This document shows positions 1,160 to 64,000 of a DNA stretch of 64,000 nt, piece by piece; position 1 is the stretch's first letter, and every line of letters starts with the position of its first letter. A program made the position numbers and the translations under genes. The stretch spans positions 1,054,001 to 1,118,000 of the forward strand of contig NZ_FNSA01000003.1 in NCBI RefSeq assembly GCF_900104775.1, read 5' to 3'. The notes under the pieces were generated by a model. That model was not told where the DNA came from. It saw nothing but the letters and a program-made list of their open reading frames with translations, and made no database searches. This DNA is from Tsukamurella tyrosinosolvens (GTDB lineage Bacteria; Actinomycetota; Actinomycetes; Mycobacteriales; Mycobacteriaceae).

Positions 1160-1875
1160 GAGTACGACCTCCGGGTGTCGGGTGCCGAGACCTCGGCGCC
1201 GTGGAACTCGACGCCGATGCCGCCCAGCGGGTAGTCCTTGCGCTGCGGGTGGCCCTCCCAGTCGTCCGGCATCTCGATCCGGGTCAGCGAGGGGTGCCCG
1301 TCGAAGACGATGCCGAAGAAGTCGTACGTCTCCCGCTCGTGCCAGTCCGTGGTCGGGTAGACGGGGAACAGCGACGGGATGTGCGGATCGGCGTCGGGGC
1401 AGGAGGTTTCGAGGCGAAGCCGGCGGCCGTGCGTGATCGATTGCAGGTGCGTGACCGCCCGCAGCTCCGCGCCCGCGTCCTCCGGGAAGTGCACGCCCGA
1501 GGTGCCCAGGCACATCTCGAAGCGCAGGGCGGGCTCGTCGCGCAGCAGGCGCGCCACGGCCACCACGTGCTCGCGCGGCACGCGCAGCGTGACCTCGCCG
1601 CGGTACACGACCACTGCGCGGATCGCCTCGGCGGACGGCGCACCGTCGGAACGGTCCAGCGCGTCCCGCAGGACCGCGACGACCCCGTCGTAGCCCGGTG
1701 GCAGCGGCTCCTCGCCCGGTCCCGGCATGGCGACGGGGCGGGCGATCCGCCCGTAGCCCGAGGTGTCGCCGGTGCCCCCGCTGAACATGCCGGTGCGGGT
1801 GCGCACCACGTCGGGCTGCGGCGCCGACGGCTCGACGGTGCCGCCGGGCTCGGGCAGATCGGGGGAGTCGGTCAT
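1156..1875 (-). CDS. nuoC: NADH-quinone oxidoreductase subunit C
   Basis: This is the 30-kDa peripheral-arm subunit of complex I, 239 residues. The start is an ATG overlapping the nuoB stop codon (ATGA). The first ~100 residues are a variable, proline-rich extension typical of actinobacterial NuoC. The conserved C-terminal half carries the family signature ERETYDFFGIVFDGHP and the ending DDWEGHPQRKDYPLGG. Its own stop overlaps the nuoD start by 4 bp, so nuoB, nuoC and nuoD are translationally coupled. Confidence is high. Confidence 0.97.
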   Translation of the reverse strand: MTDSPDLPEPGGTVEPSAPQPDVVRTRTGMFSGGTGDTSGYGRIARPVAMPGPGEEPLPPGYDGVVAVLRDALDRSDGAPSAEAIRAVVVYRGEVTLRVPREHVVAVARLLRDEPALRFEMCLGTSGVHFPEDAGAELRAVTHLQSITHGRRLRLETSCPDADPHIPSLFPVYPTTDWHERETYDFFGIVFDGHPSLTRIEMPDDWEGHPQRKDYPLGGIGVEFHGAEVSAPDTRRSYS

Positions 1876-2426
1876 CGCAGCAGGCCCTTGAACTCGATGG
1901 TGGGGCGCGACGCGAGCGCGGCCTCCTCCGCGGCCCGGCGCGCGGCTTCGCGGTTCACGCCCATCGGCGTCTCCGCGACCTTCTCGTGCAGGGCCAGCAG
2001 GGCGTTGAGCAGCATCTCCGGGCGGGGCGGGCAGCCGGGGAGGTAGATGTCCACGGGCACCACGTGGTCGACGCCCTGCACCACCGCGTAGTTGTTGAAC
2101 ATGCCGCCCGAGCTGGCGCAGACCCCCATGGCCAGCACCCATTTCGGCTCTGCCATCTGGTCGTACACCTGCCGCAATACGGGCGCCATCTTCTGGCTGA
2201 CGCGGCCGGCCACGATCATGAGGTCGGCCTGCCGGGGCGAGGCGCGGAAGGCCTCCATGCCGAACCGGGCGATATCGAACCGGGGGCCGGTGGTCGCCAT
2301 CATCTCGATGGCGCAGCAGGCCAGGCCGAACGTGGCGGGCCAGAGCGATCCCTTCCGCGCGTACCCCGCCACCACCTCCAGCGTCGACAGCAGGAATCCG
2401 CCCGGAACCTTGTCTTCTAGTCCCAA
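1872..2426 (-). CDS. nuoB: NADH-quinone oxidoreductase subunit B
   Basis: This is the 20-kDa subunit that carries the terminal [4Fe-4S] cluster N2 of complex I. I chose a TTG start at 2426, inside the end of nuoA, because it gives 184 residues and the usual MGLEDKVPGG N-terminus; longer in-frame extensions are out-of-frame translation of nuoA. Cluster ligands are visible: the CC pair in FGLACCAIEMM, the cysteine in MGVCASSGG and the cysteine in YLPGCPPRPE. The first ~10 bp overlap nuoA and the 3' end overlaps nuoC. The TTG start is unusual but fits the tight overlap. Confidence 0.95.
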   Translation of the reverse strand: MGLEDKVPGGFLLSTLEVVAGYARKGSLWPATFGLACCAIEMMATTGPRFDIARFGMEAFRASPRQADLMIVAGRVSQKMAPVLRQVYDQMAEPKWVLAMGVCASSGGMFNNYAVVQGVDHVVPVDIYLPGCPPRPEMLLNALLALHEKVAETPMGVNREAARRAAEEAALASRPTIEFKGLLR

Positions 2427-2779
2427 CTCAGTCCCCCTCGTCGCCACTCGTAGACGTAGGCGACCGTGACGTTCACCAGGAACAGCGCCATCGCGAGCAG
2501 GCCGTACGTGCCCAGCACGTCGAAGTGCACGGCCCACGGATAGAGGAAGACGATCTCGATGTCGAAGATGATGAACAACATGGCCGTCAGGTAGAACTTC
2601 ACCGGGAACCGGCCGCCACCGGACGCGGGTGTGGGCGACGGGTCGATGCCGCACTCGTACGCCTCGAGCTTCGCCCGGTTGATCCGGCGCGGCCCCACGA
2701 ACCGGGCGACACCGACGGAGAACACCGCGAAGGCGGCCGCGATCGCCCCCAGTACGAGGATGGGCACGTACAGGTTCAC
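2417..2779 (-). CDS. nuoA: NADH-quinone oxidoreductase subunit A
   Basis: This is a small membrane subunit of complex I, 120 residues with three predicted transmembrane helices. A GTG start at 2779 is preceded by an AAGGAG Shine-Dalgarno at a suitable distance. The segment LEAYECGIDPS contains the conserved loop cysteine of the family, followed by FPVKFYLTAMLFIIFDIE, the conserved second helix with its acidic residues. It is the first gene of the nuo operon; the preceding ~140 bp carry the likely promoter and a CRP-type site. Confidence 0.97.
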   Translation of the reverse strand: MNLYVPILVLGAIAAAFAVFSVGVARFVGPRRINRAKLEAYECGIDPSPTPASGGGRFPVKFYLTAMLFIIFDIEIVFLYPWAVHFDVLGTYGLLAMALFLVNVTVAYVYEWRRGGLSWD

Positions 2780-62917: not shown

Positions 62918-62933
62918 AGGTGAACCGTACCGG

Positions 62934-64000
62934 TTAAGGCTGTGAGAACCGAGAATCTGCCGCCGTGGGGACGGCTCGCGGCGCGCGATCGAGCTCCAGT
63001 GGATCCTCGCGGGAACCGTCCGGCAGGGAGTCGAGGTCGGCCAGGCGGCGGGCCGTGACGCCGACGCGGGAGTTGTACGAGCCGACGGTGGCGTTGAAGG
63101 CCTCGACGGTCCGACCCAGGGCCGTACCCAGTGAGGAGAAGTGACTGTTCAGAACGTCGAATCGTTCGTTCAGTTCGCGGCCGAGCGCCTGGATCCGGGC
63201 GGCGTCCTCGCCGGGGGCGTGCTGCCGCCAGCTCAGCGCGACGGCCCGCAGCATGGCGACGAGCGTGGTCGGTGTGGCGAGCACCACATTCCGGTTCAGT
63301 GCGAACTCGAGCAGCTCCGGATCGGCCTGCAGCGCGGCGTCGAGGAAGGCCTCGGCGGGCACGAACATGACCACCAGCTCCGGCGAGCCGACGGCCTCCC
63401 AGTACCGCTTGCCCGCCAACTGCACGACGTGGGAGCGGAACCGCCGCGCGTGGTCGGAGAGCAGGGCCGCGTGCTCGGCGGGCGGCGCTTCGAGCAACTG
63501 CAGGTAGGCGTCGAGCGGGACCTTCGCGTCGACGGCCAGATCGCGACCGCCCGCCATGTGCACCACGACGTCCGGCCGCACCCGTGCGTCACCGACCGCG
63601 CCGCCCACCTGCGTGGAGAAGTCGCAGTGCCGACTCAGCCCCGCCAGCTCCACCACGCGCTCGAGCTGCAGCTCGCCCCAGCGGCCACGCACCGTCGACG
63701 ACTTCATCGCCGACCGGAGCGTGGCGGTCTCCGCGCGCAGCGCCTCGCTCGTGCGCGCGACGGTGCCGATCTGCTCCCGCAGCCCGGCGAAGGCGGCGAC
63801 CCGGCTGCGTTCCGCGACGGCGAACTCGTGGCCGAGCGAGTCGAGGGTCTGCCGCAGCGGCGCGAGCAGCGCGTTCACGGGTCCGGCCACCGCATCGGGG
63901 GCGGGGACGGCACCGTCGGACCGGAAGGCCGGCGCGGGGAGCGACCGGGCCAGGATGATCCCCACGGCGACGCCGACCAGCAGCGCCAGGAGCGCGACGA
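62934..64000 (-). CDS. rmuC: DNA recombination protein RmuC (partial, N-terminus outside window)
   Basis: This RmuC-family protein has a hydrophobic N-terminal segment (VALLALLVGVAVGIILA) read up to the right edge, a coiled-coil region and the restriction-endonuclease-like core RGRWGELQLERVVELAGL, RPDVVVHMAGGRDLAVDAKVPLDAYL and YWEAVGSPELVVMFVPAEAFLDAAL. RmuC limits inversions at short repeats in E. coli. The 5' end extends beyond 64000; the GTG at 63965 is probably internal. Confidence 0.93.
   Translation of the reverse strand, partial: VALLALLVGVAVGIILARSLPAPAFRSDGAVPAPDAVAGPVNALLAPLRQTLDSLGHEFAVAERSRVAAFAGLREQIGTVARTSEALRAETATLRSAMKSSTVRGRWGELQLERVVELAGLSRHCDFSTQVGGAVGDARVRPDVVVHMAGGRDLAVDAKVPLDAYLQLLEAPPAEHAALLSDHARRFRSHVVQLAGKRYWEAVGSPELVVMFVPAEAFLDAALQADPELLEFALNRNVVLATPTTLVAMLRAVALSWRQHAPGEDAARIQALGRELNERFDVLNSHFSSLGTALGRTVEAFNATVGSYNSRVGVTARRLADLDSLPDGSREDPLELDRAPRAVPTAADSRFSQP

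Follow-up and report, generated by a model that had tools for sequence, protein, structure and literature searches.

This locus raises the question of why a single short word, CGACGGTGC, should recur so often on both strands of one stretch of Tsukamurella tyrosinosolvens DNA. The stretch (64,000 nucleotides, C3:1054001-1118000, from a genome that measures 5.28 Mb over four contigs; referred to here as the window) had been described preliminarily, from its letters alone, as carrying about 55 copies of this 9-mer and about 66 of the 8-mer GACGGTGC. The counts obtained were 56 for the 9-mer (29 on the plus strand, 27 on the minus strand) and 70 for the 8-mer (37 and 33), versus 3.88 and 8.73 expected from dinucleotide shuffles. 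Genome-wide there were 3277 copies of CGACGGTGC (1633 plus, 1644 minus), about 1 per 1.6 kb, versus 83 of a reversed control word (41 plus, 42 minus). The uptake signal sequence (USS) of Haemophilus has a similar density. A genome sample of 697 kb, made up of the window and 33 further stretches, was used to compare the word with a Markov model, as the preliminary description had proposed. The word ranked first among 9-mers by count and topped the z-score ranking of words with at least 20 occurrences, its 426 copies lying far above the 81 expected under an order-3 model. It is not a palindrome, the reverse complement being GCACCGTCG. Judged by these and the following comparisons, CGACGGTGC appears to behave, among known kinds of dispersed word, most like a DNA uptake sequence (DUS).

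The excess was independent of coding. Genes were called by a home-made procedure based on simple codon usage, which missed at least one gene of the window, that of a kinase. Copies in the 697-kb sample were as dense within genes (0.610 per kb, 368 in 603 kb) as between them (0.606 per kb, 57 in 94 kb, with one further copy on an edge), and genic copies lay in both orientations (174 sense, 194 antisense). Shuffling of synonymous codons gave 65.3 genic copies (standard deviation 6.9, maximum 85 of 50 shuffles) in place of the 368 observed. Copies in all reading frames, with the rare codon GCA in Ala-Pro-Ser, had been claimed before, and the claim was confirmed: the GCA-CCG-TCG frame held 63 copies versus 1.2 after shuffling, and the alanine codon preceding CCG-TCG was GCA in 63 of 101 cases, versus 3.9% of all alanine codons and 10 of 52 other Ala-Pro-Ser triplets. 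In intergenic DNA, 83 copies were found versus 8.9 expected. A by-product of codon, dipeptide or base composition might be argued from the fact that the word suits common Asp-Gly and Thr-Val codons, and that some other words of the Tsukamurella genome were also two- to four-fold above Markov expectation in the sample. The synonymous shuffles, the codon-forbidden frames and the intergenic excess rule out such an artefact and leave it a negligible probability. The preliminary description had named Markov-like counts, or codon and dipeptide preference, as what could undo its claim; neither does so, because the counts are far above the Markov expectation and the preferences are insufficient. Coding does not account for the word, which is real, specific and retained.

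The excess was also confined to the genus. Among the 16 Tsukamurella genomes counted (sizes rounded for per-Mb figures), 14 species were motif-rich, at 425-817 copies per Mb, and two were motif-poor, G006 at 165 and G007 at 265. Outside the genus, all 216 genomes of the order, from 55 other genera, had at most about 167 copies per Mb, as did all 45 genomes of a first outside set that overlaps with these. Measured against synonymous shuffles, the excess was 5.4- to 6.7-fold in Tsukamurella tyrosinosolvens and five relatives, 3.4-fold in G007, and 1.8- to 2.4-fold in four other genera; given the value for G007, a weak form of the word may be older than the split of that species. Other genera were sampled for a comparably dominant word, 13 of them over 20 kb each and four over 120 kb each, and none was found, the best 9-mer there reaching z 9.9 versus 18.2 in an equal sample of the Tsukamurella tyrosinosolvens genome. 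G006 gave only 11.8 kb for k-mer counts and no enolase match. The first 20 kb of another genus of the family (G017, C1:1-20000) held 12 copies of a different word, CGGTACCGA, versus 0.3 expected.

Window copies were retained in close relatives. Copies intact in aligned relatives were compared with flanking 9-mers using a binomial test, and the intact fraction exceeded that of the flanks in G001 (28 of 47, flanks 0.28, p 6e-6), G013 (31 of 50, flanks 0.30, p 3e-6) and G004 (29 of 38, flanks 0.44, p 5e-5). Ranked by conservation among window 9-mers, the motif was 4th of 44 words in G001, of 48 in G013, of 19 in G004 and of 5 in G002, 12th of 34 in G012 and 5th of 12 in G007; the three words ranked above it in G001, G013 and G004 overlap the motif or share its core. 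Unshared copies were mostly one base off (11 of 11 in G004 and 15 of 26 in G001 were one mismatch away in the window), and therefore the sites turn over while their density is held.

Neither genes nor replication governed where copies fell. Position along genes was uniform (Kolmogorov-Smirnov p = 0.89), without the gene-end bias that part of PMC2346458 reports for uptake sequences of Pasteurellaceae. Counts over 129 bins of 5 kb, two motif-poor stretches being excluded, followed a Poisson distribution (mean 3.21, variance 3.27) instead of even spacing, and pair distances under 400 bp gave no evidence of helical, fixed or periodic spacing. The chromosome sample held 165 copies on the plus and 177 on the minus strand, with no polarity in a best-arc permutation test (p = 0.46). 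The earlier argument that strand balance speaks against KOPS or Chi accordingly holds, for Chi in its polar form. KOPS, the FtsK-orienting sequences, are likewise short non-palindromic chromosomal words, but they point to the terminus and CGACGGTGC does not; both KOPS and polar Chi were rejected for lack of polarity.

Exact occurrences of CGACGGTGC on both strands of the window are listed below, those outside genes being so placed by our own gene calls.

1640..1648, minus strand, motif copy
1833..1841, plus strand, motif copy
7198..7206, minus strand, motif copy within a stretch earlier claimed to be empty
8002..8010, minus strand, motif copy
9084..9092, plus strand, motif copy
10902..10910, minus strand, motif copy
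12551..12559, minus strand, motif copy outside called genes
12952..12960, minus strand, motif copy
14311..14319, minus strand, motif copy
15238..15246, plus strand, motif copy
17716..17724, plus strand, motif copy
18794..18802, minus strand, motif copy outside called genes
19031..19039, minus strand, motif copy
19770..19778, plus strand, motif copy outside called genes
22842..22850, minus strand, motif copy
24121..24129, plus strand, motif copy
24465..24473, minus strand, motif copy
24518..24526, plus strand, motif copy
24913..24921, minus strand, motif copy outside called genes
26658..26666, plus strand, motif copy
27483..27491, plus strand, motif copy
28005..28013, plus strand, motif copy
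31773..31781, plus strand, motif copy outside called genes
33582..33590, minus strand, motif copy
33684..33692, plus strand, motif copy
34819..34827, minus strand, motif copy
36231..36239, minus strand, motif copy
36480..36488, minus strand, motif copy
36892..36900, plus strand, motif copy
38018..38026, plus strand, motif copy outside called genes
39112..39120, minus strand, motif copy
39277..39285, plus strand, motif copy
41113..41121, plus strand, motif copy
43406..43414, plus strand, motif copy
44449..44457, plus strand, motif copy outside called genes, left arm of a 17-bp hairpin
44474..44482, minus strand, motif copy outside called genes, right arm of the 17-bp hairpin with 44449
45034..45042, plus strand, motif copy
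47125..47133, plus strand, motif copy
48354..48362, plus strand, motif copy
49372..49380, minus strand, motif copy
49484..49492, minus strand, motif copy outside called genes
51282..51290, plus strand, motif copy outside called genes
51504..51512, minus strand, motif copy
54052..54060, minus strand, motif copy
54462..54470, plus strand, motif copy
56120..56128, plus strand, motif copy
57729..57737, plus strand, motif copy
58313..58321, plus strand, motif copy
58787..58795, minus strand, motif copy
58889..58897, plus strand, motif copy
59658..59666, minus strand, motif copy 15 bp from the copy at 59673
59673..59681, minus strand, motif copy 15 bp from the copy at 59658
61436..61444, plus strand, motif copy
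63689..63697, minus strand, motif copy
63758..63766, plus strand, motif copy
63910..63918, minus strand, motif copy

All nine copies that had been placed between genes lay outside called genes, the plus-strand positions being offset by one, and copy 18794, earlier cited as an example of GCA, also fell outside our gene calls. The region 1842-8001 had been described as free of the motif, which was incorrect, a copy being present at 7198. The largest motif-free gap in the window was 5365 bp, and Poisson arithmetic gives about 0.5 such gaps. The Pkn kinase gene (51896-53428) does lack the word, as had been noted, but at 0.6-0.9 copies per kb this is unremarkable for a gene of 1.5 kb. The suggestion that some copies build terminator stems held for the one pair folded, 44449 plus and 44474 minus, which lies after a gene and pairs perfectly over a stem of 17 bp. 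Such stems are the exception, and close inverted pairs showed no general excess in the 697-kb sample. A terminator role was rejected, copies being concentrated neither between genes nor in inverted pairs. A guanidine-III riboswitch (Rfam RF01763) at 9578-9644 on the minus strand of the window includes the 8-mer GACGGTGC at 9581.

The word extends beyond nine bases. Around 82 intergenic copies from Tsukamurella tyrosinosolvens and five relatives, the flanks preferred C or T at -1 and G or C at +9, +10 and +15, with no A at -2; the readable unit is therefore about 18 bp with a 9-bp core. The DUS of Neisseriaceae and the USS of Pasteurellaceae resemble it in being short non-palindromic words, about 1 per 1.2-2.4 kb in motif-rich species, that occur on both strands and in all frames without polarity and are limited to a taxon, and perhaps also in being scarce in an acquired-looking region and present in a temperate phage; the absence of orientation bias in uptake sequences is described in part of PMC1939737. 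They differ from it in that the host of CGACGGTGC is actinobacterial, it exceeds a high G+C background 5- to 9-fold, it is equally dense in and between genes, inverted pairs are not general, and the mismatch footprint is weak. Of the two roles put forward in the preliminary description, the DUS-like one agrees with the majority of the genomic features examined, among them copies on both strands and in all frames, restriction to the genus, few copies in a presumed island and two enriched phages. We tentatively favor, at a chance slightly below even, a DUS-like tag kept by biased uptake, most plausibly through a Tad/Flp pilus with ComEA and ComEC. In this model Tsukamurella would recognize its own DNA by a double-stranded, non-palindromic word whose core is CGACGGTGC. 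A surface DNA receptor, part of the Tad/Flp pilus or acting with it, would prefer DNA bearing the word and feed it to ComEA/ComEC. Recombination of such conspecific DNA would let copies newly made by point mutation spread and persist, and this putative molecular drive would act in any frame, on either strand, in genic or intergenic DNA, and also in temperate phages living in the chromosome.

Competence and pilus genes were present. ComEC and DprA were found in the Tsukamurella tyrosinosolvens genome, ComEA adjoins ComEC, and ComEA was found in all 16 Tsukamurella species. The ComEA match on contig C42 of G015 had an internal stop and continued in a second, overlapping match, reflecting a sequencing error or a broken gene. 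PF00482, the TadB/TadC-type platform, matched twice per genome throughout the 14 motif-rich species but was not found in G006 or G007. A whole tad locus was seen in G012, consisting of an unassigned 355-codon gene (here called ssd), tadA, tadB, tadC, a DUF4244 pilin gene, and tadE- and tadG-like genes. The actinobacterium Micrococcus luteus, in which tad genes are required for transformation according to part of PMC4322843, similarly combines a Tad locus with ComEA and ComEC; a point of difference is that the main text of that paper does not use the terms 'uptake sequence', 'uptake signal' or 'sequence-specific'.

Copies were also counted in phages and in acquired-looking DNA. Four Tsukamurella phages were used, TPA4, TPA2, TIN2 and TIN3, with TIN4 and HKU2601-2608 left out; for TPA4, TIN3 and the controls the counts cover the first 50 kb. 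TPA4, which has an annotated integrase, carried 19 copies in 50 kb versus 5.7 expected, and its genes 19 versus 4.4 (maximum 12 of 200 shuffles). TPA2 carried 17 in 61 kb versus 5.5, and its genes 14 versus 3.5 (maximum 8 of 200 shuffles). No excess was found in five Gordonia or Mycobacterium phages (2, 1, 2, 5 and 4 per 50 kb, expected 3.6-6.0). On the chromosome, C3:2.54-2.86 Mb held 22 copies in nine stretches (180 kb), 0.12 per kb versus 0.61 in the sample, and this region looks like acquired DNA and may be a mobile island. Genes for methyltransferases, an asparagine-synthase-like protein and a primase-polymerase lie in it (C3:2540001-2860000, about 300 kb). In Pasteurellaceae, USS are denser in core than in accessory genes, as stated in a section of PMC6776037. 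Two sequences filed as plasmids of T. tyrosinosolvens NCTC13231, NZ_LR134454 and NZ_LR134446, had motif counts of 46 and 25 per 50 kb together with chromosome-like genes (kstR, an MlaD series, rfbABC and ptsP), and may be pieces of chromosome.

A number of observations weigh against an uptake sequence. Known uptake sequences are enriched between genes (PMC1939737, in part), unlike CGACGGTGC with its equal densities; an intergenic excess with inverted pairs at terminators is typical of known uptake sequences, not definitional. Uptake drive should leave a footprint of single-mismatch forms, according to the same portion of PMC1939737; such forms were at background inside the core (1046 versus 1024 in the 697-kb sample) and about two-fold at the two ends of the word, and intergenic forms inside the word numbered 147 versus 124. 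The excess of intact copies was not significant in G012 (13 of 46, flanks 0.19) or G002 (12 of 28, flanks 0.35), and in G007 3 of 31 copies were intact, no more than flanks, which fits a gain of the motif after the G007 split. In TPA2, 36 of 3148 other words ranked equally high, and no integrase is annotated among the features listed. Phages TIN2 (4 versus 2.1 in 77 kb) and TIN3 (2 versus 1.3 in 50 kb), both of 59% G+C, had no clear excess. The phage pattern does not itself run counter to an uptake sequence, because phages of Pasteurellaceae are likewise split, temperate ones gaining USS and large, likely lytic ones not (PMC6776037, in part). No report joining natural transformation and Tsukamurella was found in the literature searched.

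The link to the pilus is open to similar objections. PF00482 was present in 13 of 14 and ComEC in 10 of 14 control genomes, and being so common they are insufficient to explain the motif. ComEA places G006 and G007 farthest from the other species (58% each), so that the agreement of pilus with motif probably reflects a single evolutionary contrast; the G006 assembly, moreover, is a draft in 890 contigs. Among 13 motif-rich species in which tadA was examined (G003 was left out), the gene was interrupted in five, Tsukamurella tyrosinosolvens, G013, G004, G010 and G008, and uninterrupted over the part covered in G012, G011, G002, G001, G014, G009, G005 and G015. The break lies near codon 336 of the G012 protein, a site that is a shared insertion hot spot. 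The insert of Tsukamurella tyrosinosolvens (C3 about 4704371-4710957) carries two tyrosine-recombinase genes, and C3:4685001-4719000 yielded no match to the first part of tadA; similar recombinase genes, by their first residues, stood at the break in G013 and G004, and 1.4 kb only was seen in G010 and G008. Motif density was alike in species with interrupted and intact tadA (means about 591 and 609 per Mb); the cuts are therefore recent or reversible, or the Tad pilus is not the reader. Mobile elements occur in competence genes elsewhere, such as phages in comK and islands in comM, and the insertion site in tadA would for that reason fit a competence role.

Other readers of the word were considered. 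The location-blind, Poisson, gene-independent spread would suit a word bound inside the cell by a protein that organises or segregates the chromosome, and so would the extended preference over about 18 bp, as expected of a protein that binds double-stranded DNA. This explanation is unlikely, in that the copies have no polarity or periodic pattern and are scarce over the 300-kb chromosome region, and we are not familiar with organising sites of such density and 9-mer specificity. We consider it quite unlikely that the word regulates a helicase-nuclease (RecBCD or AdnAB) as Chi does, protecting ends, promoting recombination and so being selected in chromosome and phages. Chi, the signal of RecBCD/AddAB, is also a short, asymmetric, over-represented word; its E. 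coli form is GCTGGTGG, which the core GNNGGTG, with its shared GGTG, matches at 5 of 8 places. RecC was found in 16 of 16 Tsukamurella species, and two Tsukamurella phages were enriched. At RecC positions that we take to be the Chi contacts of the E. coli protein, T64 and G133 were present in 11 motif-rich species and S137 in 10 of the 11, versus S64, R133 and G137 in G007 (of the other E. coli residues, 186 was opposite a gap and 705 lay outside the coverage). These differences are suggestive only and weigh little, because G007 RecC is divergent throughout (branch 0.46). Chi sites generally show replication polarity, which CGACGGTGC lacks, RecC is equally present in motif-poor G006 and G007, and base preferences on both sides of the core, at -2, -1, +9, +10 and +15, suggest a protein binding double-stranded DNA over single-strand reading.

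A mutational or repair drive like that proposed for HIP1, in which a methyltransferase or biased mismatch repair makes and keeps the word without benefit, had been the second role put forward in the preliminary description, and it proved the weaker of the two. The cyanobacterial HIP1 is also a dispersed, over-represented oligonucleotide, taxon-wide, genic and intergenic; its single-base deviations are commonest at the word ends (part of PMC4390886), as are those of CGACGGTGC, and phages replicating in the cell would gain copies too. HIP1, however, is palindromic, which CGACGGTGC is not. HIP1 is tied to methyltransferases and a repair model (also PMC4390886, in part). Of the 16 Tsukamurella species, 4 had N6_N4 methyltransferases and 14 had C5 methyltransferases, G011 (about 725 copies per Mb) having neither, and no methyltransferase common to all motif-rich species was found in these two families, type I and others not being searched. 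We regard such a drive as very unlikely.

Returning to the uptake sequence, a bolder version would make CGACGGTGC the first such sequence of a Gram-positive lineage: a word of about 18 bp with the core YCGACGGTGCS, read by a receptor tied to a Tad/Flp competence pilus. It would have arisen within Tsukamurella and been carried by molecular drive into genic and intergenic DNA and into phages, the pilus ATPase gene serving as the insertion site of recombinase elements, as in a conflict over transformation. This version is possible, and on balance we doubt it. To our knowledge, uptake sequences are known from two Gram-negative families only and their origin is debated. No report of an uptake sequence in Actinobacteria was found among the matches listed in the literature searched; the 9-mer was likewise not found in the Tsukamurella literature among the matches listed, and those listed for the 8-mer were unrelated by title. 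If CGACGGTGC is an uptake sequence, the origin of an uptake dialect would be datable and its receptor could be sought, through motif-poor G006 and G007 and the pilus locus present or absent in step with the word. If it is not, something must still read these 9 bp, retained in some 3000 copies, and whatever does so would be new. In both cases the word serves as a practical compositional mark of old versus recent DNA in Tsukamurella.

The window enolase gene (4472-5755) had a second copy elsewhere in the genome, at C3:4038654-4039919, 99% identical to it, and second enolase copies were also present in G004, G014, G011, G005 and G003.

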